Origin: a virus | DNA length: 22,007 bases | Direction: 5' to 3' (one strand) | Virus record (IMG/VR): IMGVR_UViG_3300025759_000793 | Location: 1 to 22,007 of that record | Shown here: piece by piece, positions 8,796 through 21,725 of the stretch | How the letters are laid out: each line of letters starts with the position of its first letter | Numbering within the stretch: the first letter of the stretch is position 1 | Made by a program: the position numbers and the translations under genes | The notes under the pieces: model-generated | Told to the model about the DNA's origin: nothing | What the model saw: the letters and a program-made list of their open reading frames with translations, nothing else | Databases searched by the model: none

Positions 8796-9229
8796 TGTTT
8801 ACCTCCGCTCTGATGTGTCTCGCTACCGCGATCTACTTCGAGGCACGCAACCAAGACCTGCAGGGTCAGCTCGCCGTGGCACAGGTGGTGCTCGAGCGAG
8901 TCTACGATCCACGCTTTCCCGACACTGTTTGTGGTGTTGTCACCGCCGGCGGCGAGACCCGGCACCGCTGCGCCTTTTCGTTCTACTGCGACGGCCTGCC
9001 CGACACGCCTACCGACCAAAGAGCCTTTCTAGTGGCTAAATGGATCGCTTCAGGGGCCATGGGAGGCTTCATAAGCGACGTTACAGGCTACGCAACCCAT
9101 TACCATGCCTACTACGTACAGCCCGACTGGGCGCGTTATATGCGGCCCACGGCCGTCATTGGGGACCACATATTCTACCGGGATGTGCCGAGCGACGAGG
9201 ACCACGGGCCATGGGATACTTGGGAGTAA
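8795..9229 (+). CDS. SleB-type cell-wall hydrolase (endolysin)
   Basis: The 144-residue protein matches the Hydrolase_2/SleB catalytic domain. CLATAIYFEARNQDLQGQLA holds the catalytic glutamate E16, followed by AVAQVVLERV, a RCAFSFYCDG segment and the ATHYHAYYVQPDWA block. SleB enzymes are lytic transglycosylases that cut peptidoglycan glycan strands. The domain is complete and there is no signal peptide, so export probably needs a holin. It is the last gene before promoter cassette 4. Confidence 0.88.
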   Translation: MFTSALMCLATAIYFEARNQDLQGQLAVAQVVLERVYDPRFPDTVCGVVTAGGETRHRCAFSFYCDGLPDTPTDQRAFLVAKWIASGAMGGFISDVTGYATHYHAYYVQPDWARYMRPTAVIGDHIFYRDVPSDEDHGPWDTWE

Positions 9230-9322
9230 AAATAAGTAAAAAAAAGTGGTTCCCAGGTATTGTTTTGTTCCCTGGATGTGCTACTATTCGTTTGTAGGTT
9301 AGTTAATCAATACAGGAGACAG
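9228..9322 (+). promoter_or_regulatory. Promoter/leader cassette 4
   Basis: TAAAAATAAGTAAAAAAAAGTGGTT is followed by TTGTTT (9260-9265), a 16-base spacer and TACTAT (9282-9287) with an upstream TG (extended -10). CCAGG/CCTGG flanks the -35. ATACAGGAGA is at 9310-9319. The A-rich start is shared closely with cassette 5. Confidence 0.65.
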
Positions 9323-9324
9323 AC

Positions 9325-9906
9325 ATGATCAAAGTTACTTATTACCAAGTCCAAGCTTATCATCCTAACAACTGGGAAAGCGGCGAGTGGAAACCTGCTA
9401 ACCAATGCAAGTGGGAATGGGTGGGGTGCGAAAGAAACAAGTTCACTGATCTTGCCGAGGCGGAGGAGTGCTTAGCCAAGGAAGAGGCAGAGTGGTGTAA
9501 GTTCCTCGCCGAAACAAATCCTGAGGGTGAAGAGGCCATTGCCCACATCGCCGCTCTCAAGGCTAAGAAGGCCTACAGGATCGTCGAGGACGTTGTCGAA
9601 TATAAGTACGCTTGCCACTATATGTACACTGATGTCGACGCCTATGAGATCGTTAAGGTGATCAGCGACAAGACTATCGAAGTCAGGAAGATGGATAGTG
9701 AACACAACATCGCTCACCTGAAGCAGTACGTCGGCGGTTTCTTCGGACATGTGGCCAACCAGAGGGACCAGAAAGTCACTTACGCAAGCAATCCCGATAA
9801 CGGAGTGATCAGGATCAGGAAGAAGAAAAACGGCGACTGGGGATACAAGGGCTTAAGGTTCGGCCTGAGCGAAAAGCCTTACGCCTTCTACGATTTCAAC
9901 TTCTAA
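9325..9906 (+). CDS. Conserved hypothetical phage protein (193 aa)
   Basis: The N-terminal ~90 residues are Trp- and Glu-rich (NWESGEWKPANQCKWEW...). The C-terminal ~95 residues are basic and beta-rich (DAYEIVKVISDKTIEVRKMD, QYVGGFFGHVANQRDQKVTY, RIRKKKNGDW, EKPYAFYDFNF). The C-terminal block with GGFxGH and a final YxFYDxNF looks like a family I associate with many tailed phages, with no known function. The gene stands alone in its transcription unit, with its own cassette upstream and a hairpin after the stop. Confidence 0.8.
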   Translation: MIKVTYYQVQAYHPNNWESGEWKPANQCKWEWVGCERNKFTDLAEAEECLAKEEAEWCKFLAETNPEGEEAIAHIAALKAKKAYRIVEDVVEYKYACHYMYTDVDAYEIVKVISDKTIEVRKMDSEHNIAHLKQYVGGFFGHVANQRDQKVTYASNPDNGVIRIRKKKNGDWGYKGLRFGLSEKPYAFYDFNF

Positions 9907-9912
9907 TCAACC

Positions 9913-9928
9913 GGCCCCTTCGGGGGCC
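9913..9928 (+). terminator. UUCG-capped GC hairpin after the gene
   Basis: GGCCCC - TTCG - GGGGCC is a perfect six-pair stem with a UUCG loop, seven bases after the stop. No clean T-tract follows, so termination would be weak or the hairpin may protect the mRNA 3' end. Confidence 0.55.
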
Positions 9929-9988
9929 AACCCTCAAAAAACTGCACATAATTTTGTCCATGGCCTGTAAGCTGTTGAATTTATTAAG

Positions 9989-10093
9989 GTAAAAATAAGT
10001 AGAAAAAAGTGGTCGAAAGTGTTGTTTTTTAGAATTAGATCGATTAAGCTGTAGTTGTTGTCGGGGAGTGGCCCCGCCGGATACAGGAGAAGG
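9989..10093 (+). promoter_or_regulatory. Promoter/leader cassette 5
   Basis: TAAAAATAAGTAGAAAAAAGTGGT is followed by TTGTTT (10022-10027), with a weak -10 TAAGCT (10045-10050) after 17 bases. A hairpin CGGGG/CCCCG (10062-10076) and ATACAGGAGA (10081-10090) precede the ATG. Confidence 0.6.
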
Positions 10094-10095
10094 AC

Positions 10096-10329
10096 ATGAT
10101 CAAACTCATTAAAAAACAAGACGCAGAATGGCTCGGAAACGGACTGGGTAACCAAGCAGCGCAATGGGTAGTAAAAGGCGCCGAGCATATTGAATTATGG
10201 AAAGGTTCAACCGAGTGGAATATTACTAACACTCAAACAGGCGAAAGAATCGGTAGATGGTTAGACACTCGCGCCATGGCAGTTACATTACTCGAGGCTC
10301 TTGTAGCTGAAGGCGAACTTTCAATCTAA
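10096..10329 (+). CDS. Hypothetical small protein (77 aa)
   Basis: ATG 10096 follows the repeated ribosome binding site. The protein has a beta-rich first half (VVKGAEHIELWKGSTEWNIT) and the phrase NTQTGERIGRWLDTRAMAVT, ending in a helix. This resembles small beta-hairpin domains built on aromatic residues; no family assigned. Confidence 0.75.
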   Translation: MIKLIKKQDAEWLGNGLGNQAAQWVVKGAEHIELWKGSTEWNITNTQTGERIGRWLDTRAMAVTLLEALVAEGELSI

Positions 10330-10352
10330 CCAACCCCATACAGGAGAAAGAC

Positions 10353-11081
10353 ATGCTGAAAATCATCGCTAACGCTGAGTACCGCCCCGGTGCACCAAAC
10401 TCAACTCCTAAGGCTTACCAGAAGAAAGCACAGAAGCTCTTCGCTGAGCTCGGTGAGAATGTCGAAATCGTCAAGATCAAGTGCAACTACAACAGCAAAA
10501 AATACCACCTGTTCGCTTTCGGTGAAGACGTCAGCAAGCCCCTCTACCGACAGCAGGGCCGAATCGAGGTCAGCGAGAAACAGCGCGCTCTCCACGGACC
10601 TGACTACATGGATGGTGCGGATCACTTCTACGCCGTTTGGTCTGACTGGCAAGATGGCACTGGCTACACTGAGTACCAAGCTCAGGCCCAAGCCGCTATC
10701 AAAAAACACCGTCAAGAGAAGCAGGCCAAGGAGGCACGGCCTGCAGTCGGCCGCCGGGTAGAATTCTGGGCCAACCAAGCTTGGAGAGAGGGCGAAGTCC
10801 TAGCGACTATCGAGGACCGCGCCCTAATCGCCTACCGCATGCCTGCCGGTGCTGTGTACATGGTCATAGTGGCTCACGATCCCAACACAGGAGCCTCTGA
10901 GCGACAATGGCGGCACAATACTAGCTGCGTCCGGGGTTACCGTTACGGCAGCTACAAATCAATCTCAGCCAACGCCCTGAAGAAAAACGCCAAGTGGCTT
11001 GCTGAGGTCCAGAAGGTAGAAGGCTTTGAGGAGGGGAACGTGGACCAAGGTCTCGAGTATCTTGGGGAGGACCTAGAATAA
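10353..11081 (+). CDS. Hypothetical protein (242 aa)
   Basis: Starts after ATACAGGAGA (10338-10347), same transcript as the previous gene. Residues 1-130 are basic and mixed alpha/beta (KAYQKKAQKLFAELGENVEI, HFYAVWSDWQDGTGYTEY) with a charged helix KKHRQEKQAKEAR. From ~130 an SH3-like beta domain is plausible (GRRVEFWANQAWREGEVLAT). The C-terminus is acidic. It is the largest protein of the accessory region without recognisable family; a DNA- or ribosome-binding role is possible but not shown. Confidence 0.75.
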   Translation: MLKIIANAEYRPGAPNSTPKAYQKKAQKLFAELGENVEIVKIKCNYNSKKYHLFAFGEDVSKPLYRQQGRIEVSEKQRALHGPDYMDGADHFYAVWSDWQDGTGYTEYQAQAQAAIKKHRQEKQAKEARPAVGRRVEFWANQAWREGEVLATIEDRALIAYRMPAGAVYMVIVAHDPNTGASERQWRHNTSCVRGYRYGSYKSISANALKKNAKWLAEVQKVEGFEEGNVDQGLEYLGEDLE

Positions 11082-11105
11082 AATTGAAACAATTTAAAAC
11101 CAATT

Positions 11106-11205
11106 AAATAGAAAAAAGTAGTGAAAAGTAGTTGACCGTAACCCTGACTTCGAGTATTCTACAGTTGTTGTCGGGGAGGGGCCCCGACCAGATACAGGAG
11201 AAAGA
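11106..11205 (+). promoter_or_regulatory. Promoter/leader cassette 6
   Basis: AGTGAAAAGTAGTTGACC has a near-consensus -35 TTGACC (11132-11137), a 17-base spacer and TATTCT (11155-11160). A perfect 7-bp hairpin GTCGGGG/CCCCGAC (11170-11188) and ATACAGGAGA (11192-11201) follow. This is the best sigma70 match of the six cassettes. Confidence 0.72.
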
Positions 11206-11207
11206 CC

Positions 11208-11378
11208 ATGGAAAACATTAAAAACAAAATCGAGCCTTACAACTTCGACGACGAAAATCCAGTCGTAGCTACTTTCCTAAATGCCGAGGGTGAAGTAATC
11301 GGCGAAATGCGAAGGAACGATACTTGCGAGTATGAAGGTGGTAGCTTCTGCGTCGGCCTGCTTTACGAGTACGACTAA
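11208..11378 (+). CDS. Hypothetical small protein (56 aa)
   Basis: ATG 11208 stands seven bases after CAGGAG of cassette 6. The acidic product (MENIKNKIEPYNFDDENPVV..., EVIGEMRRNDTCEYEGGSFC) has two Cys and a beta-hairpin look. It opens the transcript that continues to 12178. Function unknown. Confidence 0.7.
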   Translation: MENIKNKIEPYNFDDENPVVATFLNAEGEVIGEMRRNDTCEYEGGSFCVGLLYEYD

Positions 11379-11389
11379 CCACGGACCAC

Positions 11390-11405
11390 GGCCCCTACGG
11401 GGGCC
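11390..11405 (+). promoter_or_regulatory. UACG-capped hairpin before a ribosome binding site
   Basis: GGCCCC - TACG - GGGGCC is a perfect six-pair stem with a UNCG-class loop, two bases before ATACAGGAGA (11408-11417). It has the same geometry as 4839-4854 with a different loop and stem base, and no T-tract. Confidence 0.65.
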
Positions 11406-11423
11406 CCATACAGGAGAAAGCCC

Positions 11424-11645
11424 ATGGCTTTTAACATCGCAAAATTCAAAACTGCCCTTGGCAAGAAACGCTTTGCCAAGATCGCCGACATCCTCGACGA
11501 CGGCCAAGTGGTTGAGGTAGAGCTTTACAATGGTTGTTATGATTTCTGGGAGTATGCTTACGACGAATATACTTTCGCCGAAATCGTTGCCCACGCCAAG
11601 CAATTCATTGATGACGACGGCTTTGGTGGAGCCGGCCAAGACTAA
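11424..11645 (+). CDS. Hypothetical acidic protein (73 aa)
   Basis: ATG 11424 follows the repeated ribosome binding site by seven bases. MAFNIAKFKTALGKKRFAKI is followed by a beta segment (GQVVEVELYNGCYDFWEYAY) and an acidic C-terminus. An acidic protein of this size could mimic DNA, but composition alone does not prove it. No family recognised. Confidence 0.72.
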   Translation: MAFNIAKFKTALGKKRFAKIADILDDGQVVEVELYNGCYDFWEYAYDEYTFAEIVAHAKQFIDDDGFGGAGQD

Positions 11646-11668
11646 CCAACCCCATACAGGAGACAGAC

Positions 11669-11872
11669 ATGAAAATTATCGAGACACTTCAGATTGGTGA
11701 CAATGGTGATGGTACTTACAAGGTGTGGAGTAAAAGCCACGATGAAGTTTGGGGCTGTAACTCTTATGCAGAAGCGTTAAAGATACTTGAACAATGCGTT
11801 TGGGGTATTCAGGATGTATACAATGATGCCGTTGTTGAAAGCGAAGCATCACGCGCAGGTTGGTACGATTAG
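11669..11872 (+). CDS. Hypothetical small protein (67 aa)
   Basis: ATG 11669 follows ATACAGGAGA (11654-11663). The protein reads as two beta strands (TLQIGDNGDGTYKVWS) and a helix (SYAEALKILEQCVW), the order of a small substrate- or nucleic-acid-binding fold. Function unknown. Confidence 0.72.
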   Translation: MKIIETLQIGDNGDGTYKVWSKSHDEVWGCNSYAEALKILEQCVWGIQDVYNDAVVESEASRAGWYD

Positions 11873-11884
11873 TTAATCCGCCGC

Positions 11885-11912
11885 GATTCGGGCCCTAATC
11901 GAGGCCCGAATC
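11885..11912 (+). promoter_or_regulatory. Perfect 10-bp hairpin between genes
   Basis: GATTCGGGCC (11885-11894) and GGCCCGAATC (11903-11912) pair perfectly around an 8-base loop in the 78-base space before the next gene. No T-tract follows. It holds the place that GC hairpins occupy in other leaders. Confidence 0.6.
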
Positions 11913-11950
11913 CAGTAAACGACACCTCTTCATCAATACAGGAGACAGAC

Positions 11951-12178
11951 ATGAAAGCGACAATCAAAAATCTCAACGCCTACATACAGGCACGTTACCC
12001 AGACCTCGACCTCGAGTTCGTCAAAGGAGAAGGCTATTTCTATTTCGCCGGCGACCCCTACGTCGAGTCAATCTACGTCTACGCACTCAACCAGTGTGGC
12101 TATGACAAGTGGTGCGAAATGATCGACGGAGCGCTCGAGAGAGCGTTCAAAACGGAGGAAATGGCACTGGGTTTCTGA
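11951..12178 (+). CDS. Hypothetical small protein (75 aa)
   Basis: Starts after the last ATACAGGAGA copy (11936-11945). The product (MKATIKNLNAYIQARYPDLD, EFVKGEGYFYFAGDPYVES..., MIDGALERAF) has an alpha/beta/alpha order; the phrase 'LDLEFVKGEGYFYF' looks conserved in type, and I believe similar small proteins occur in phages. It is the last gene before the non-coding switch region. Confidence 0.74.
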   Translation: MKATIKNLNAYIQARYPDLDLEFVKGEGYFYFAGDPYVESIYVYALNQCGYDKWCEMIDGALERAFKTEEMALGF

Positions 12179-12283
12179 CGTTAATTTCTACATTACGTTG
12201 CATTACGTTACCGGAAACTACACCCGTTTTTGGCCATTACACTGAATTTTGACGTAATGAGGCGTAATGGCAACGGGGTGAAT

Positions 12284-12322
12284 GCCTGAAAGGCCCGTGG
12301 AGAGCGGCTTTCAGGCGTTTTT
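12284..12322 (+). terminator. Rho-independent terminator
   Basis: GCCTGAAAG (12284-12292) pairs perfectly with CTTTCAGGC (12308-12316), followed by GTTTTTG. It would end + strand transcription of the early gene block. Confidence 0.72.
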
Positions 12323-12368
12323 GCATGGAAATAGGGGTGAAGGTATTACGGCGAGATTTTCGTTGCTG

Positions 12369-12402
12369 TAAGGGCCTGTATGGCGCTCTAGGCCTTATTT
12401 TA
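12369..12402 (+). terminator. Second candidate terminator
   Basis: TAAGGGCCT (12369-12377) pairs with AGGCCTTA (12390-12397) with one bulged G, followed by TTTTAT. A weaker backup to the terminator at 12284. Confidence 0.45.
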
Positions 12403-12457
12403 TGCGGGTTCGAGTGGCATGGACCACGGACCACGGGTCAGATTGAAGGAAAAGCCC

Positions 12458-12720
12458 TTATAGAGGTGTAATCTGAAAAAAAAGAGTTTTATTTTTTTAT
12501 GTACGTATAACACCTCTATAGACGTAATGGTGTAGATGTTATTTAAAATCAATAGCTTATCTATTACGTTAGTATTACGTCTATGTTTTAACAGACGTAA
12601 TGGTGTAATGATGTAAATTTTAGATTCATCGCGCGCGGTCTATTTCAGTAGTGAAAAATATTTTTTTGTAGATTACACCTCTATAGAAGCGTTGAATTTG
12701 ACTGTAAACACCCCTATAGA
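12458..12720. repeat. Repeated ACACC(T/C)CTATAGA promoter-like motif
   Basis: The motif occurs on the + strand at 12510-12522, 12675-12687 and 12708-12720. On the - strand it is at about 12458-12470 (TATAGAGGTGTAATC at 12459-12473, last base differing). Upstream bases are also similar (GATTACACC in two copies). The last + copy forms a sigma70-like promoter, TTGAAT (12692-12697), 17 bases, TATAGA (12715-12720). The other copies lack a good -35, so the whole motif may be the recognition site. Confidence 0.62.
12692..12720 (+). promoter_or_regulatory. Probable promoter of the packaging/virion operon
   Basis: TTGAAT and TATAGA are separated by exactly 17 bases, 36 bases before ATG 12757, with TTAGGAGG as ribosome binding site in between. 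The -10 box lies inside the ACACCCCTATAGA repeat. Confidence 0.68.
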
Positions 12721-12756
12721 GTACATTCCCTGCCCTAACACCCTTAGGAGGACCTG

Positions 12757-13023
12757 ATGCCTAAACTCTACGACGAGCCCTGTACGACGACGGGGATAGT
12801 GCCCAAGCAGCACACCCTGTCAAAGCTTGTATCGGGACGAATCCAACGCTATCCATTCTCGGGCATGCTAGTCGGAGACTTTCTCGTTCTCATGAGCCCT
12901 GAGGACGCGCAGAAGGCCAGAAACGCCCTTAAGACATTCTACCGAAACGCTCGAAGTGTCGGCCGTAAGTTTACGGTACGGCCTAACCGAGAAGGCGTTT
13001 GGATTTGCAGGAGAGTCGCATGA
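12757..13023 (+). CDS. Conserved hypothetical phage protein (88 aa), paralogue of 6319-6531
   Basis: AGGAGG lies five bases before ATG 12757. The first ~30 residues (MPKLYDEPCTTTGIVPKQH...) are unique. From ~31 the protein shares the pattern of the 6319 gene: QRYPFSGMLVGDFLVL, a central helix KARNALKTFYRNARSVG, and RKFTVRPNREGVWICRRV. It opens the packaging operon directly before the small terminase (ATGA overlap). The basic helix and position fit a DNA-binding role, but that is inference. Confidence 0.78.
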   Translation: MPKLYDEPCTTTGIVPKQHTLSKLVSGRIQRYPFSGMLVGDFLVLMSPEDAQKARNALKTFYRNARSVGRKFTVRPNREGVWICRRVA

Positions 13024-13916
13024 GCAAGCGAATGAAAGAGCTGTTCAACACTGTGCCGGTGAAGTCGGCGAAAATGGACAAAATGGAAGAGCGTTTGGCG
13101 CAGCCGGTGAAACCTTTGAAGGAACAGGAGAACGCAGTCTCACCGCAGCAGTGGAAGTTCGTGCAAGAGCTCGTCGCAGGCGACGGGAGCGTTACTCTGA
13201 GAGAGGCAGCCATACGGGCAGGCTACCCTGAGAAAAACGCTCAGGCGCAAGCCAATAAGCTTACGAACCCAAAATACTACCCGCAGGTAGTCGCAGCGAT
13301 CCAAGAGTATCGGCGTGAGCTATCTGCAAAGTACGTGACGAACTTCGACAGGCATATGCGCGATCTTCAGATCATTCGTGACGCCGCTTTGGACGCCGGC
13401 AACTACAGCGCCGCAGTAGCGGCCGAGTATCGTCGAGGCCAAGCACTAGGGACCATCTACATTGACCGCAAAGAAATCAGGCACGGCACTATCGACTCGA
13501 TGAGCAAGGACGAAGTAAGGCGCAAGCTTGAAGAAATTAAAGCCCTATACGGCGCCCCGCCGCAGACTTTGATTGACGTCACGCCAGATGAGCTCGAGGA
13601 AAAGCCTAAAACGATGATTGAGGAGATGCGTGATGGCCAGAGGTCCAGAGAGTCTGTTGTACCAGAAAGTGAAGGAGAACTTGCCGAAATCGATGATCAC
13701 GAGACTGGAGAGTCGGGTGGGACTGGGGATACCGGACTGCATAGTGGGGCTGCTCGGTCAGAGGTTCGTGATGATAGAGCTGAAGGTAGTGAAGAGCGGC
13801 CGCAGGGTGAAGTTGAGCCCGCACCAGATAGCTTTCAACCTGAGCCATGGGATGGAGGACCTGCCGGTATTCATCCTAGTGCTGCACCAGAAGACGGGCA
13901 CGACGAAAGCCAGTGA
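13020..13916 (+). CDS. terS: Terminase small subunit with long overlapping C-terminal frame
   Basis: Start ATG 13020 has AGGAG upstream and an ATGA overlap. Residues ~41-100 carry the helix-turn-helix block of small terminases (SPQQWKFVQELVAGDGSVTL, REAAIRAGYPEKNAQAQANK, LTNPKYYPQVVAAI), which binds the packaging start site and recruits the large subunit. Residues ~105-170 are the oligomerisation-type helices. From ~205 to 298 the frame runs 284 bases inside the nuclease gene and encodes only a low-complexity Glu/Gly/Pro/Ser sequence. The conserved protein probably ends near residue 205. No slippery heptamer was found. Confidence 0.85.
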   Translation: MSKRMKELFNTVPVKSAKMDKMEERLAQPVKPLKEQENAVSPQQWKFVQELVAGDGSVTLREAAIRAGYPEKNAQAQANKLTNPKYYPQVVAAIQEYRRELSAKYVTNFDRHMRDLQIIRDAALDAGNYSAAVAAEYRRGQALGTIYIDRKEIRHGTIDSMSKDEVRRKLEEIKALYGAPPQTLIDVTPDELEEKPKTMIEEMRDGQRSRESVVPESEGELAEIDDHETGESGGTGDTGLHSGAARSEVRDDRAEGSEERPQGEVEPAPDSFQPEPWDGGPAGIHPSAAPEDGHDESQ

Positions 13917-14049
13917 CGCTAAGCTGCTGCTTTACCACGGCCGCCAAAGCCAAGACCTCTACGGCCAAGGCGTCGACGCTGAGCCGCTTGCTTGGTGGCC
14001 TTACGACGACGTTGACTGGCATGAGCTGAGGTATAAGCTCATAAAGTAG
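13633..14049 (+). CDS. VRR-NUC type PD-(D/E)xK nuclease
   Basis: ATG 13633 has GAGGAG seven bases upstream. The 138-residue protein has P34-D35 (LGIPDCIVG), E49-x-K51 (FVMIELKV) and Q65 (LSPHQIAF), the active-site series of VRR-NUC nucleases, with a glutamate-bearing first helix (ESLLYQKV). Related phage enzymes are thought to trim branched DNA before packaging, which fits the place between the terminase genes. The C-terminus PLAWWPYDDVDWHELRYKL recurs, diverged, just downstream (14057-14125). The gene begins inside the small terminase frame. Confidence 0.85.
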   Translation: MARGPESLLYQKVKENLPKSMITRLESRVGLGIPDCIVGLLGQRFVMIELKVVKSGRRVKLSPHQIAFNLSHGMEDLPVFILVLHQKTGTTKASDAKLLLYHGRQSQDLYGQGVDAEPLAWWPYDDVDWHELRYKLIK

Positions 14050-14147: not shown

Positions 14148-14177
14148 GGCCCGGCGCCCACACGCCGGGCCTTTTTT
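14148..14177 (+). terminator. Strong Rho-independent terminator
   Basis: GGCCCGGCG (14148-14156) pairs perfectly with CGCCGGGCC (14163-14171), followed by six T. It ends the transcript carrying the small terminase and nuclease. Confidence 0.88.
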
Positions 14178-14504: not shown

Positions 14505-14536
14505 CTAATTCCGGTAATTATGATTACCGGAATTAG
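14505..14536. repeat. Perfect inverted repeat, 14-bp arms
   Basis: CTAATTCCGGTAAT (14505-14518) and ATTACCGGAATTAG (14523-14536) are exact reverse complements around TATG. There is no T-tract. Possible roles are operator, terminase recognition or recombination site. Confidence 0.8.
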
Positions 14537-14675
14537 CGGGTCCCTTGGTGCCGATTCGGATCGTCAAACGAACGCTCGTTCGACGGGGGGCGCGAATCCC
14601 GGCCGCGGCGTCTGGCGGCGCCTCTTTAGCCCGATTTCGTATAAATAGTTTGGCCCAAAACAGTTTTGCCCTTTT

Positions 14676-14691
14676 TGTTTCACGTGGAACA
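14676..14691. promoter_or_regulatory. Consensus parS (ParB-binding centromere) site
   Basis: TGTTTCACGTGGAACA matches the bacterial chromosomal parS pattern TGTTYCAC-GTGRAACA in both half-sites. Its reverse complement, TGTTCCACGTGAAACA, is the consensus parS known from Bacillus subtilis, to my knowledge without mismatch. ParB dimers bind this sequence and spread as a CTP-dependent clamp. No parA or parB is visible, so a host ParB would have to act. A 16-base match by chance in 22 kb is very unlikely. Confidence 0.82.
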
Positions 14692-14770
14692 TCCTTGCAA
14701 CCCACCCCCTTTTGTTTAAGAATCAAATCGCTCAAAATTTTTTTGCAAATTTTTTGAAAATGGGTTTTGC

Positions 14771-14953
14771 ATGGAAGAGTACAACTACACCCAGTTAATA
14801 CTGGCAATACTGAAATACACTCGAGGCCGATATAGCGTAGAAGAGGTCATGGAAACCGTGGCCTTTATCGAGACCTATGAGGAAGAAGAGCAAGAAGCTG
14901 CTATACTAAGCATAGTCAAACAGAAAGAAGAACAGGAACCACATGCTACCTAA
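14771..14953 (+). CDS. Hypothetical acidic helical protein (60 aa)
   Basis: The 60-residue product (MEEYNYTQLILAILKYTRGR, then YSVEEVMETVAFIETYEEEE) is acidic and helical. Its 3' end overlaps the large terminase start by 11 bases and contains that gene's GGA-rich ribosome binding site, which supports a real coupled gene. No clear Shine-Dalgarno precedes its own ATG. Function unknown; position suggests a packaging accessory. Confidence 0.6.
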   Translation: MEEYNYTQLILAILKYTRGRYSVEEVMETVAFIETYEEEEQEAAILSIVKQKEEQEPHAT

Positions 14954-16424
14954 CGCTGCCCCTGAGGACATCGAAGCCGAACGTCTTCGACTAGAGTACC
15001 GCCTAGCTATGCTAGAGGGCCAAGAGAAAGCACAAAATACTTTTCTTGGTTTTTCACGCTACGTATGGCCTGAAGCCATCCTGTCTAGCCACCACGAAAA
15101 GATGGCCGCGGCGTTTGACCGTATTGCCAACGGCACGTTGAAGCGCTTGATTATCAACATGCCGCCTCGACACACGAAATCTGAATTTGCATCCTACTTG
15201 CTTCCGGCCTACATCATGGGCCGTCGTCCAAGCACCAAGATCATTCAGGCAACGCACACCGGCGAGCTCGCTGTCCGCTTCGGCCGTAAAGTGCGTAACC
15301 TCATGGACCTCGATAAATACAAAGAAGTATTTCCTGAAGTTGCCTTGAAGGCCGATAGTAAAGCCGCCGGAAGGTGGGACACTAACGATGGTGGTGAATA
15401 TTTTGCCGTGGGCGTCGGAGGTGCAATGACGGGCCGCGGTGCGGACATGTTGATCATCGACGATCCCCACTCTGAGCAGGACGCGGCGTCTCAGCTAGCT
15501 CTGGACAATGCGTGGGACTGGTACACCTCTGGCCCTAGAACTCGATTGCAGCCGGGCGGCGCTATTGTTATTGTGATGACTAGGTGGGGAACCAAGGACC
15601 TAACGGCCCGACTACTCAAAGCTCAGTCTAACAGCAATGCGGACCAGTGGGAGGTTATCGAGTTTCCTGCCGTCTTCGATGAGGGCGAACCTAACGAACG
15701 TGCCCTTTGGCCGAGTTTCTGGCAACTTGACGAGTTGCGCGCGGTCCGTGCTTCTATGTCCATTCAGAAGTGGAACGCGATGTATCAGCAGCGGCCCACG
15801 GCGGATGAAGGCGCAATCCTGAAACGTGAGTGGTGGCGTGTCTGGGAAAAGGACTACATGCCGCGGCTCGAGTACATCATCCAATCCTACGATACTGCCT
15901 ATTCGAAAAAGGAGACGGCGGACTTCTCTGTCATTACGACGTGGGGCGTTTTCTATCCGACCGAGGACGACGGACCAAGCATCTTGTTAATTGATGTGCG
16001 TAAGGGTCGTTGGGACTTTCCTGAACTCAAACGTATTGCCAAGGACCAGTATGACTACTGGCAGCCGGATAATGTGTTGATCGAGGCAAAGGCAACGGGG
16101 ATCACGCTTCAGCAAGAACTGCGTAGGCTAGGTATTCCTGTCACCATGTATTCACCCGGCGGGCGCCGTGCAGGTCAGGACAAAGTCTCACGGGCCAACT
16201 CTGTTGCACCTATTCTCGAGTCCGGTATGGTCTGGGCACCTGAAACGCAGTGGGCGGAAGAGCTCATCGAAGAGTGTGCTGCATTCCCAAATGGCGACAA
16301 CGATGACTTAGTGGATAGTACCACTCAGGCGTTGATGCGATTTCGTGCGGGTAACTTCATTCAGTTGCATGACGACGAGGATGAAGATGATGAAACTGAG
16401 GGACTTGTGCCAGAGTATTATTAG
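14943..16424 (+). CDS. terL: Terminase large subunit
   Basis: The 493-residue protein is the packaging motor. The N-terminal ATPase has a Walker A-type loop at residues 73-80 (MPPRHTKS) and Walker B at 170-174 (LIIDD) followed by PHSEQ. The C-terminal RNase H-like nuclease has D317 (QSYDTAYSKKETADFS), E381 (LIEAKATG) and the D454/D455/D458 group (DNDDLVDS). It cuts concatemeric DNA and drives it into the prohead through the portal. Length and motif order are complete. The C-terminus is strongly acidic (DDEDEDDETEG). It lies 893 bases after the small subunit because of the nuclease and non-coding block. Confidence 0.95.
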   Translation: MLPNAAPEDIEAERLRLEYRLAMLEGQEKAQNTFLGFSRYVWPEAILSSHHEKMAAAFDRIANGTLKRLIINMPPRHTKSEFASYLLPAYIMGRRPSTKIIQATHTGELAVRFGRKVRNLMDLDKYKEVFPEVALKADSKAAGRWDTNDGGEYFAVGVGGAMTGRGADMLIIDDPHSEQDAASQLALDNAWDWYTSGPRTRLQPGGAIVIVMTRWGTKDLTARLLKAQSNSNADQWEVIEFPAVFDEGEPNERALWPSFWQLDELRAVRASMSIQKWNAMYQQRPTADEGAILKREWWRVWEKDYMPRLEYIIQSYDTAYSKKETADFSVITTWGVFYPTEDDGPSILLIDVRKGRWDFPELKRIAKDQYDYWQPDNVLIEAKATGITLQQELRRLGIPVTMYSPGGRRAGQDKVSRANSVAPILESGMVWAPETQWAEELIEECAAFPNGDNDDLVDSTTQALMRFRAGNFIQLHDDEDEDDETEGLVPEYY

Positions 16425-16467
16425 CCCTAAACTAGCGAAACAATAACTCTTTTTCGAGGGCCTCCGC

Positions 16468-19098
16468 ATGGCCAACCAATCTGCACGAGAAATGCTTTCA
16501 CGGCTTCCTGTTCGTATGGCCGACGGAGGCTCAGTCGCCTCTGCTAACCAAAGCGTATTGGATTTTATTAATAGCAATCCTAATGCCTCGTTGGAAGCTA
16601 TTGCTACTAAAATCAATACCACTGGCGCAGACCTAGGCTCTCTTGCGGACTCACTCGGTATTTCAAGGGACGTAGCAAATCAGGCCTACGCTGAGGCCAT
16701 GGCCACCAATAACGCCCTTTTGGCTGCTGAAGAGCGAATTCTTGGTGAGATCGCCGAGGACCCTTCTTCGTGGGACCCCGCCAAGGCCTACAACGCCATT
16801 TTGGAATCAGGCGTTACTGTAGAAGATGCTCTTGATGCAGGCGTAAAGCAATCTACTATTGATGCGATTTTCACCTCCGGCGCCCCGCTTCCTGTTACTG
16901 CGTTCTCTACTCCATCAACGGTAGCCTCTGCATATGAATCCGCCCCGTTTGTAGGGAAGGACATGCAGCCTTTCTACACTCAGGCACAGAACTACGTCGC
17001 AGGACTCATGGCCGACGGCGTAATAGACGAGAATGAACGCCGTGAAGCGCAGGCCCTTGCTATTCAGGGAGGTTACACATTCCAAGACATATTAGCGGCG
17101 GGCGTTGATCCGAGTATCCTGTTCAACGTGCCTGCTGCAAAGGAGCCGGACCCACCAGTTATTGTTGACCCGTTCCCCCAAACTCAGTTCCCTCAGACAC
17201 AACCTGAGTACGTGCCGCCTACTGTTTATCAGCCGATTGACTTTGATCCAAGCGTGTTTGCTCCCGGCGAGCCTGCTTTGGATGTAGCATTCAGGGAAAG
17301 CGCACCAAGGACCGAGGTCCTTGATCAGTATGGCAACCTTGTTGGTTTTGACTACACGCCTGCTGCTAAGTTGCTCTCGGCCACCGGATCAGGATTCAGT
17401 TGGACACCGCCTACAGTCACTGGCCGACCTCGTTCGTTGATGTCTACTGGCACGCTAGGCCGTTATACCCAAGGCCGTGCAGCGCAGGACTTGCGTCAGT
17501 TGGTTGGTGGTAACGAAGAAGCGTATCAAGCGTTTGCGCCACTTCTGTCTCAAACAGGCAGCTACGGTGGTGGCCTGTCACGCTCACAGCTTTTTGCACT
17601 GATGCAACAGCAGGCGAATCAGCAAGGGCAACAGGAAGCGTCTAACTACGCACAGTTCGGCACGCGGTTCGGGGCTCGCCCTGCGGGGACCACGGGCTAC
17701 AGTGAGATTGCCGAAGAAGTGCCTATGTACGCTGAGGACATGCGAGGCGTTAATGTTTCAACAGGTTCGCTGAACGACCCGATGACCGTAAAGCCTGTCG
17801 ACTTTAGGTACGGCAGACCTTACGCGGAGGGCGGCGAAGTAAAAAAGCTTGAGGGCAGTGAAGAGCTTACTGCCGAGGGTGACACTGAAAGTGCAGGCAT
17901 GCTAGCGAACCTGCTTCGCGGCGCTAAAGGAATCCCCTCTAGCATTTATGGCTATGGCAAGGATGTATTCCAGAGCCAGTCGCCTTCTGCAAAAGTACTA
18001 ACAGATATTTTTGGCCTTGGCGGGGCTATACAGGAAAGCGCCGGAGAAGACCCCATAGGCTTTGCCTTGGACATGGCGCCTGTAACAGGTGAGATACGTT
18101 CAGGCATGGACGTTGATAAGTATTCTGATCTTGCCGACGAGGCCCGCGCTGCGGGGGACACGGAATCTGCTAGGATGTACGAGCAGATAGTCGCGTTGTC
18201 CATGGCGGGTGCAGTGCCGTTAGCCGGCATGGGAGCTCGAGCAGCTAAGCGCACTGCTAAGGCAGGCATCGAAGCGGCAGAAACAGCCGCGACTCAGTCC
18301 GCACGCATGTTGGATGAGATAGCGCCGACCACGGCCCAAGTGCCAGAATCTCCTGTAAGGGTCCCAGAGTCAGGAGCACCTGTAAAAGCTCAGGAATTTG
18401 TAAACTTAGAAGACCGCTCAGGTAAATTCAAACAAGTCTACAAAGGCATCTACCCTCATCAAGGGGATATTAAAACTCCTGAAGAAATGGTGGCTAGGGC
18501 AGAAAGGATTGGTCCAAGCTTCCAAGATGAGATTCGTGAGGTAACGAATAAATTAGGTCTTGAGAAGATAGAGACGTTTGGAGTTAAGGGGCTGAAGAGC
18601 CTTAAAGATAAAATTAACCGAAATTACGAGCTAGAGACTATTACCGACCCTATCCGTACTCGAATCTTAATTAACACTGCAGAAGAAGCAGAAAACGCTG
18701 CACGAATGATTGCGGACAAGATGCCTTCTGTAGACAGAGGCTTCCAAGTTATTCCCGGCAATGGTTACTTTGATAGAAAGCTTAATGTAATGTACACAGG
18801 ACCTAACGGTGAGCGTCTGCTAGGTGAAATTCAGCTTGTCACACCAGAAATGGTTAGAGCATCTGAAGGACAAGGCCATAGGTTGTACGAAGTTGAGCGA
18901 AAGTTAATTGAAAGGTATGGAGGAAAAGAAAACATTCCTCAGACTCATATTCGCAGATTTGAAAACATGCAAGAAGCGCAACGCCAACTTTACGGAGGCG
19001 TTGCGGATCAGGCCGATCCTAAGATAGTAGAAGAGCTTATCCCTAAGTTTAAAAGGGGAGGCTACGTAGCTAAAGTAGGCAAAGCAGGTAAGTCTTGA
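16468..19098 (+). CDS. Large virion-type protein with C-terminal RelA/SpoT-like domain
   Basis: The 876-residue protein starts at ATG 16468 after GAGGG. Residues 1-230 hold helical repeats (ESGVTVEDALDAGVKQSTID; GGYTFQDILAAGVDPSILF), and 230-450 are Pro/Gln-rich. Residues 480-640 are Ala/Gly-rich with a possible membrane-active segment (IVALSMAGAVPLAGMG). About 670-830 match the RelA/SpoT nucleotidyltransferase plan: KGLKSLKDKINR, TDPIRTRIL (D727, R730, R732), GNGYFDRKLNVMY and GEIQLVTPEM (E787), then GHRLYEVER. D727 and E787 align with catalytic Asp and Glu of (p)ppGpp synthetases. GGxV motifs occur at 20, 455 and 864. The last ~700 bases are clearly AT-richer. An ejection or injected effector role is inferred. 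Confidence 0.78.
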   Translation: MANQSAREMLSRLPVRMADGGSVASANQSVLDFINSNPNASLEAIATKINTTGADLGSLADSLGISRDVANQAYAEAMATNNALLAAEERILGEIAEDPSSWDPAKAYNAILESGVTVEDALDAGVKQSTIDAIFTSGAPLPVTAFSTPSTVASAYESAPFVGKDMQPFYTQAQNYVAGLMADGVIDENERREAQALAIQGGYTFQDILAAGVDPSILFNVPAAKEPDPPVIVDPFPQTQFPQTQPEYVPPTVYQPIDFDPSVFAPGEPALDVAFRESAPRTEVLDQYGNLVGFDYTPAAKLLSATGSGFSWTPPTVTGRPRSLMSTGTLGRYTQGRAAQDLRQLVGGNEEAYQAFAPLLSQTGSYGGGLSRSQLFALMQQQANQQGQQEASNYAQFGTRFGARPAGTTGYSEIAEEVPMYAEDMRGVNVSTGSLNDPMTVKPVDFRYGRPYAEGGEVKKLEGSEELTAEGDTESAGMLANLLRGAKGIPSSIYGYGKDVFQSQSPSAKVLTDIFGLGGAIQESAGEDPIGFALDMAPVTGEIRSGMDVDKYSDLADEARAAGDTESARMYEQIVALSMAGAVPLAGMGARAAKRTAKAGIEAAETAATQSARMLDEIAPTTAQVPESPVRVPESGAPVKAQEFVNLEDRSGKFKQVYKGIYPHQGDIKTPEEMVARAERIGPSFQDEIREVTNKLGLEKIETFGVKGLKSLKDKINRNYELETITDPIRTRILINTAEEAENAARMIADKMPSVDRGFQVIPGNGYFDRKLNVMYTGPNGERLLGEIQLVTPEMVRASEGQGHRLYEVERKLIERYGGKENIPQTHIRRFENMQEAQRQLYGGVADQADPKIVEELIPKFKRGGYVAKVGKAGKS

Positions 19099-19373: not shown

Positions 19374-21725
19374 ATGCCAATAGACAAGGTTGTAAATCTA
19401 GCTCCGGTAACCGACATCAACGAAATGATGGGGGATGAGACGGACATCGAGGTCATTCTTGAGGATGATGGTAGCGCTGTCGTTGAAATAAGTGAAGATG
19501 ATGACGTTGATTTTTACAGCAACCTTGCCGAGGTTATCGACGAAGACGAGCTAAACCAGATTTCTCTGGACCTTTTGGCGTTATTCGAGGCGGATAAGTC
19601 TTCGCGTTCTGACTGGGAAGACATGTACTCCAAGGGTATGGAGCTTCTGGGCCTTAAGATCGAAGACCGCACACGTCCGTTCCGTGGTGCTGCAGGCGCG
19701 GTCCACCCGATGCTTACAGAGTCTATCGTTCAATTCCAAGCGCAGGCATTTAAAGAGCTTATGCCCGCCGGCGGCCCTGTCCGCACGCAAACTTTGGGCA
19801 AAGAAACGCTCGATAAGGTCCAACAGGCCTCGCGTGTTCAAGATTTTATGAACTATCAGATCACTTCGGTCATGAAAGAGTACACGCCGGAATTCGATCA
19901 GCTACTTTTCTACGTCGGATACGGCGGTTCTGCGTTTAAAAAGGTTTATTATGATGAACAACTTGGCCGTATGGTCAGTCGTTTGGTTCTTCCTGACGAT
20001 CTTTATATCCCTTACAACGGCTCGAGCGTCATTTCTCAGTGCCCAAGAATTACCCACCGCATTTCTATGGACTCAAATGAGTTCAGAAAGCGTGTTGTGG
20101 CCGGCGAATACCGCGATGTGACTGTTGAGCCAAGCGAAAATCCGCTTGGTGGCGATCAAATCCGCTATTCTATTGACAAAGTTACTGGTTTAGTCGAGAC
20201 AGGCGAGCCCGAAGAGATATTTTTGCTCGAGTTCCAGATAGATTTGGACATTTTGGGCTTTGAAGACACAGATGAAAGTGGCGAACCGACTGGAATTAAG
20301 GTTCCTTACGTCGTTACATTGGACGAAAACAGCGGCCAAGTAGTCAGCGTCCGCCGTAACTGGCTAGAAGACGACGAATACAAGTGCCGACGCGAGTATT
20401 TCGTGCATTATGTGCTTGTAGAAGGACCCGGAGCCTACGGTTTGGGCTTTGTACACCTAATTGGTGGCCTTTCTAAGACCGCAACCTCTGCACTGCGTCA
20501 ACTTCTTGACGCCGGAACGCTAGCTAACCTCCCTGCGGGCTTCAAAGCCAAGGGAGCGCGCATTGCAGACGAGGATGGGCCTATTCAGCCGGGCGAATGG
20601 CGGGATATTGACGCCGGCGGCGCTGAATTGACGTCTTCTTTGCTGCCATTGCCCTATAAAGAGCCCTCCCAGACGCTATTTACCCTTCTTGGCTTCACTG
20701 TAGACGCGGGAAGACGCCTTGCAGGCATTGCTGATATGCAGGTAGGTGATGGAAATCAACAGGCTGCTGTTGGTACTACACTGGCTTTGCTTGAGCGTGG
20801 CTCTATGGTGATGTCAGCGGTTCATAAGCGCCTTTACTACGCTCAGACGCAAGAATTTGAGATGTTGGCGCATGGATTTGGGCAATATTTACCCGATAAT
20901 TACCCATATGACGTGCCCGGAGCGTCTAGATGTGTAAAAAAGGCAGATTTTTCCCACATGGTCGCTGTATTGCCCGTAGCGGACCCCAATGTATTCTCTG
21001 CTGCTCAACGCATTACTCTCGCACAGACTCAACTGCAGCTAGCGCAAAGTGCGCCGCAGATGCACAACATGTATGAGGCGTATTACCGCGTCTATCAGGC
21101 AATGAACGTGCGTGACATTGACGGCATTCTTAAAGTCCAAACTAACCAGATGCCTAAGGACCCTGCTAGCGAGAATATGGAAGTGGCCGATGGCAAAGAG
21201 CTCAAAGCCTTTGCCGGTCAACAGCATGACGCCCATATTGCCTCTCACTTAATGATGGGCTTATCTCCTCTTATGCAGGCCAACCCTTTAGCCGCGGCAG
21301 AACTGCAAAAACACATCTTGCAGCACATTCGTTTGAAAGCGGAAGAGGCCACTGAGGCAGAACTGTTTATGGAGTACGGTGAAGACCCAGACAGAATGAT
21401 TTCTGACTTGCAACGTGAGGCAATGATCTCTATTAAGGTCGCCGAGTACATGATCGAGATGAAGTCTGTGCAAGGTCAGCTTTCTGGAGAAGGCCAAGGC
21501 GAAGACCCAGTTGTGGCGCTCAAAGCACAAGAGCTTCAGCAACGCGCTGTTAAGGACCAAGCAGACATTCAGGCCAAACAACAGAGCCTGCAGCTAGATC
21601 AACAACGTATTGCTGCTAATCAGCAGGCCAACGAAGCGCGTATTCAAGGCCAGAAAGACATTGCTGATCAGCGCGCAGCCGTTGCCATGGAGCGAATCTA
21701 TGCTCCTAAACAAGGAGGCCGCTAA
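19374..21725 (+). CDS. Portal protein
   Basis: The 783-residue protein has an acidic N-terminus, then [51 protein letters not shown] and a region running through [20 protein letters not shown] and [10 protein letters not shown]. The order matches large portal proteins of the P22-like/connector type. [32 protein letters not shown] and [20 protein letters not shown] match the portal core and clip region. The last ~75 residues form a Gln/Ala-rich helix (barrel-like extension). It forms the twelve-fold ring through which terminase packs DNA. Only a weak GGA precedes ATG 19374. The stop overlaps the next ATG. Confidence 0.85.

Follow-up and report, generated by a model that had tools for sequence, protein, structure and literature searches.

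An orphan chromosomal-type parS site between the terminase genes of a phage family, with probable recruitment of host ParB

The window, which is the whole stretch of DNA analyzed here (22,007 nucleotides, positions 1 to 22,007 of IMG/VR virus record IMGVR_UViG_3300025759_000793), contains the terminase and portal genes of a phage. A non-coding gap of about 720 bp extends from the terS and nuclease-like genes to a 60-aa ORF overlapping the terL start, and a parS-type site lies within it. The features are as follows:

12999..13916, plus strand: terminase small subunit, terS (PHROG 51, E=7e-11)
13618..14049, plus strand: small nuclease-like protein (PHROG 2165, E=1e-9, PHROG family label 'DNA helicase'; 'nuclease-like' was judged by the look of the sequence)
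14148..14171, plus strand: terminator-like hairpin, end of the upstream terS/nuclease-like operon
14505..14536, no strand assigned: inverted repeat, 14 bp perfect, with a 4-nt loop, CTAWTTCCGGTAAT-N4-ATTACCGGAAWTAG
14545-14757, plus strand, and 14505-14807, minus strand: longer frames crossing the site, mechanical ORFs within the gap
14623..14650, plus strand: conserved block upstream of parS, consensus GCTTTAGCCCGATTTCACACAAATAATT
14676..14691, no strand assigned: parS-type 16-bp site TGTTTCACGTGGAACA, a near-palindrome, identified by exact sequence and conservation in relatives
14694..14713, plus strand: conserved block directly downstream of parS, CTTGCAACCCACCCCCTTTT (alignment)
14734..14753, plus strand: conserved A/T block AAAATTTTTTTGCAAATTTT, ahead of the first gene
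14771..14953, plus strand: 60-aa ORF, the first downstream of parS, overlapping the terL start (no Pfam or PHROG match)
14943..16424, plus strand: terminase large subunit, terL (Terminase_6C, E=1.9e-12; PHROG terminase, E=7e-111)
16468..19098, plus strand: large protein, syntenic with the DSL-LC04 'PcfJ-like protein' (no Pfam or PHROG match)
19374..21725, plus strand: portal protein (PHROG 1216, E=7e-32)

The 16-mer at 14676-14691 matches TGTTYCACGTGRAACA, which identifies it as a chromosomal-type parS, and besides its own palindromic reverse it is the sole match in the window at up to three mismatches. The background at this threshold was 0.23 matches per window (shuffled window), and by simple arithmetic the exact 16-mer is expected about 1e-5 times per window. 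The preliminary description of this DNA, made from the sequence alone, had placed a full parS match in non-coding DNA between the terminase genes, and both the identity and the position of the site were confirmed.

The window phage is water-borne and looks lytic. By terL identity, its nearest annotated relatives are Phage DSL-LC04 (78%), 023Pt_psg01 (61%), HTVC027P (57%) and HTVC023P (56%), with genomes of about 58-62 kb. The window represents a 22-kb fragment of a genome of about 60 kb, so that the remainder was judged through relatives only. The window phage is similar to the HTVC023P-type pelagiphages and DSL-LC04 (proposed Dishuiviridae) in terL, portal and gene order; DSL-LC04 and HTVC023P are without parS, whereas HTVC027P has one, within a coding frame that lies between its two terminase genes. 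HTVC027P, a cultured pelagiphage infecting Pelagibacter, is obligately lytic according to its description (PMC12753301); for DSL-LC04, a lytic lifestyle and a Pseudomonas host were predicted (PMC10611076). The parS carriers are best explained as a family of lytic podovirus-like phages. Host assignment from MAG and single-cell contigs was dropped, as the relatives were found in bins of many phyla, mostly metagenome bins.

Relatives were gathered by terL alone and not by parS, which yielded 80 loci and, after removal of near-duplicates, 47 upstream regions. In 37 of these 47 terL-selected relatives, the 600 bp preceding terL contained parS (at most three mismatches to TGTTTCACGTGAAACA), and the conservation in related phages that the preliminary description had proposed to check is therefore established. 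Three more, L133, L156 and L204, retain GTTCCACGTGGAAC or the CATGTG form at four mismatches, which would raise the count to 40 of 47. In a wider 67-row set, which contains parS-selected loci and serves as background, its observed count being no rate, shuffles gave a mean of 0.05 and the reversed control gave 0 at up to three mismatches. Exactly one GTTYCACGTGRAAC was found in 20 of the 34 terL-selected whole records and none with the reversed control, and L201 has parS at -536, -488 and -447 from terL, three copies in a span of about 100 bp. The site is common among close relatives of the window and rare in more distant ones: among distant relatives collected without bias from bacterial genome assemblies (terL identity about 50-66%), parS was within 600 bp of terL in 3 of 63 loci (L208, L217 and L260).

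The substitution pattern of the site follows that of known parS. Positions 3, 6, 7, 9, 10, 11, 14 and 15 are invariant across the parS of the relatives, positions 2, 4 and 13 each vary once, and changes cluster at 1, 5, 8, 12 and 16; setting aside the C8>T (CATGTG) form of one subclade, the variation is limited to positions tolerated in known parS (PMC4368675). Known variants also occur among the phage sites, with TGTTCCACGTGGAACC corresponding to Pseudomonas aeruginosa parS1/4 and TGTTCCACGTGGAACA to parS2/3 (PMC4368675). Mean pairwise identity among 30 near relatives was 0.86 in the parS columns, compared with 0.40 in the left flank and 0.64 in the right flank, and parS ranked second in conservation among the 16-column windows of the gap, within about 0.001 of the first, which is the parS window shifted by one base. 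Chance occurrence of parS is ruled out by this conservation, and nothing counted in its favor.

The right flank includes conserved blocks in the alignment, namely CCACCCCCTTT and an A/T stretch, so parS belongs to a conserved region that resembles a control region. The inverted repeat at 14505-14536, which lies upstream of the parS block, is kept with compensatory changes in most of the near clade (L126-L180) and is missing from the far clade. The GCTTTAGCCCGATTTCACACAAATAATT block is a single copy in every genome scanned, and its role as a repeated late promoter was rejected on this ground; its surroundings showed no sigma-70-like promoter. This block is retained in parS-less relatives such as DSL-LC04, where, as in several others, the surrounding block is kept and parS is gone, and because some relatives keep the block without it, parS is not essential. 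Similarly, the flanks of L183 match those of parS-bearing sisters (e.g., L181), and the site itself has been replaced. Parsimony on the terL tree gave eight presence/absence changes, which were scattered and without significant clustering, so that clustered inheritance of parS on this tree was unsupported. The site thus comes and goes within a stable region.

A link of the site to the packaging region is also evident where the gene order has changed. The gap is lost in L157, where terS, the nuclease-like gene and terL adjoin one another; there the entire block including parS has shifted to the head of the packaging operon, about 120 bp ahead of terS, and the site is at -1272 from terL. In eight contigs sharing a terS family, parS is directly after terS; these contigs were chosen for parS, so that the place is informative and the frequency is not, and in seven of them parS is 0.4-0.8 kb before terL or terL is at the contig edge, the distance being 1.3 kb in L062. 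In L198, parS is just after terL, with which promoter control fits less well, and in the distant relatives L044, L054, L107 and L108 it follows the portal match by 67-220 bp. Across all whole parS-bearing contigs, enrichment at terL was weak (6 of 33 within -600 to +30, against 2.2 expected), so the claim on position rests on the family of the window and not on all phages. The conserved place can reflect descent alone.

The preliminary description had also stated that no ParA or ParB is encoded nearby, and had proposed a search for parAB elsewhere in the genome. HTH_ParB, ParA and integrase are absent from the 22-kb window record, in agreement with that statement, and the search was extended to 50 phage records, of which 16 were chosen for parS and the other 34 were terL-selected. 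ParB_N was found in none of the 50, and HTH_ParB, ParA-type ATPase and tyrosine integrase in none of the 34, with positive controls in bacterial genomes matched in each case. A phage-encoded ParB was rejected, with neither a CTPase-domain nor an HTH-domain match in the records searched, and an integrated lifestyle was rejected because no integrase was present in the 34 records. Neither parA and parB accompanying the site, as in a complete ParABS system, nor the integrase, ParA or ParB of a plasmid prophage was found in the records searched. In 50 other parS-bearing viral records, many of them fragments, ParB_N was detected in two, one of which was under the cut-off.

For Pelagibacter, the phage site could be compared with that of the host. 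Of 61 genomes from one genus of Pelagibacteraceae, 48 have exactly one GTTTCACGTGAAAC, and it sits in an rsmG-like gene beside parA in the one genome inspected (genes named by sequence). HTVC027P (L207) carries the same 14-mer GTTTCACGTGAAAC at 16413-16426, in the coding frame between terS and terL (FHVKH), which is unannotated and resembles the nuclease-like gene of the window. The orphan site of HTVC027P thus matches the parS of its host at the genus level; the probability of a 14-mer match over the four named relatives together (240 kb) is about 0.004 by simple arithmetic.

In the IMG/VR database, exact matches to TGTTTCACGTGGAACA were found in at least 120 stretches of viral contigs, some of which may be host or plasmid DNA, vs. 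one for its reverse; the reverse of TGTTTCACGTGAAACA likewise occurs once in viral contigs. As TGTTTCACGTGGAACA is far commoner than its reversed control, the phenomenon may extend beyond the family of the window. A 116-kb viral contig (L300) has twelve parS sites about 200-1100 bp apart within 5 kb (8906-13878), and one of ten neighboring ORFs scanned had Pfam matches, being polynucleotide kinase/phosphatase-like. Clusters of three to five perfect TGTTTCACGTGAAACA were observed in L031 (2657-3444), L084 (10535-11462) and L097 (240-961), each with a distant terL (about 27% identity) close by; the portal of L084 is SU10-like, and ParB_N was not found in these three partial records.

Considering the above results, we propose that the function of the site is to recruit host ParB, with a probability of roughly 0.6 on the sequence evidence. 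No proteins that read parS were found in the relatives searched, and so they probably recruit those of the host. Host ParB would be expected to bind the site during infection, given that the site agrees in sequence with known ones, P. aeruginosa parS1-4 among them (PMC4368675). This part of the earlier interpretation, an orphan parS with recruitment of host ParB, stands as the best explanation. Two outcomes that the preliminary description had named as refuting, loss of the site from all close relatives and a phage-encoded ParB, were not observed. The other part, segregation as an extrachromosomal prophage, is less supported, given the missing integrase and the lytic lifestyles described for HTVC027P (PMC12753301) and predicted for DSL-LC04 (PMC10611076).

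How bound ParB might act is less certain. Control of the packaging genes is the best fit to the position of the site and is unproven; a local effect on expression of the packaging module is a speculative suggestion, possible rather than probable. P. aeruginosa ParB represses the downstream genes at the intergenic parS3 and parS4, and on a test plasmid parS placed ahead of the repA promoter silences it (PMC7022226). Local action is favored because of this repression and the position of the phage site. Loss of ParB alters few parS-near genes in Bacillus subtilis, Vibrio cholerae and Streptococcus pneumoniae (PMC7022226). In a possible model, parS at the start of the packaging operon would serve as the loading site for host ParB, and the ParB CTP clamps would slide across the terminase-portal module. 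This module would be tightly covered while phage copies are few, and the cover would weaken once replication outnumbers the host ParB pool. Host ParB could then serve as a copy-number timer, with the packaging operon silent at few genomes and opened by ParB dilution, so that a host centromere protein would couple packaging to replication; we regard this timer as doubtful.

Alternatively, ParB together with ParA and SMC might position, condense or distribute the whole replicating phage genome, the proximity to terL being inherited and irrelevant. We consider this rather unlikely; it is in line with the stabilization of unstable plasmids by parS with parAB (PMC7022226, PMC4368675), with the use of SGI1 parS mimics in such a manner (PMC10954446), and with sites located after terL (L198) or after the portal gene (L054, L107 and L108), but under it neither the association with the start of the packaging operon nor the relocation in L157 would be expected. 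Titration, in which many phage genomes would absorb host ParB and block chromosome segregation or division of the host, is unlikely. The single parS in most Pelagibacter genomes means that a replicating one-site phage would outnumber the host site, but a sponge would profit from more than the one site usually present per phage genome, and several bacteria can do without ParB.

Plasmid-like maintenance, in which the site would aid segregation of a carrier-state or extrachromosomal prophage, has a precedent in plasmids provided with chromosomal parS and parAB (PMC7022226). It is improbable here, as integrase, ParA and ParB were not found in the records searched, no lysogeny family was among the 25 Pfam families listed, out of 35, for one 62-kb relative, and HTVC027P is obligately lytic as described. 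Equally improbable is that the site is a parS look-alike recognized by a phage protein, either the terminase small subunit or a regulator: the site does lie in a conserved gap beside the terminase genes, but the relatives reproduce the parS consensus with its tolerated positions, the flanks survive without the site, the motif recurs by other, distant terminases, and no gene was present in all parS-bearing and absent from all parS-less genomes compared, several records being partial. Recruitment of host ParB remains the preferred reading.

P1 and N15 are extrachromosomal prophages with their own partition systems, including their own ParA and ParB. The RedRock-type mycobacteriophages are likewise extrachromosomal prophages with their own partition systems (PMC7157519). 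The window phage shares with all of these a phage genome with a ParB-binding centromere, here a putative one; in contrast, they encode ParA and ParB, and here neither was found, nor was integrase. Compared with the chromosomal ParABS of Bacillus, Pseudomonas and Pelagibacter, the 16-bp motif is the same and the tolerated variants are mostly the same, whereas the site described here is on a phage, single, beside the terminase genes and without parAB. SGI1 comes closest among the known systems: its parS mimics bind the ParB of IncC, stabilize SGI1 and destabilize the plasmid (PMC10954446). It is likewise a mobile element with an orphan parS, and it uses the ParAB of another replicon, as the phage may do; however, SGI1 is an integrative element with a helper plasmid and a KorB-type site, and here a lytic phage carries chromosomal parS. 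In searches of the open-licence literature, no description was found of a lytic phage that carries an orphan chromosomal parS or exploits a chromosomal system.

If host ParB is recruited as proposed, lytic phages of an abundant aquatic group would exploit a bacterial centromere without partition genes of their own, and ParB would become a host factor of phage development. Furthermore, tests in culture would become feasible with HTVC027P and Pelagibacter HTCC1062.
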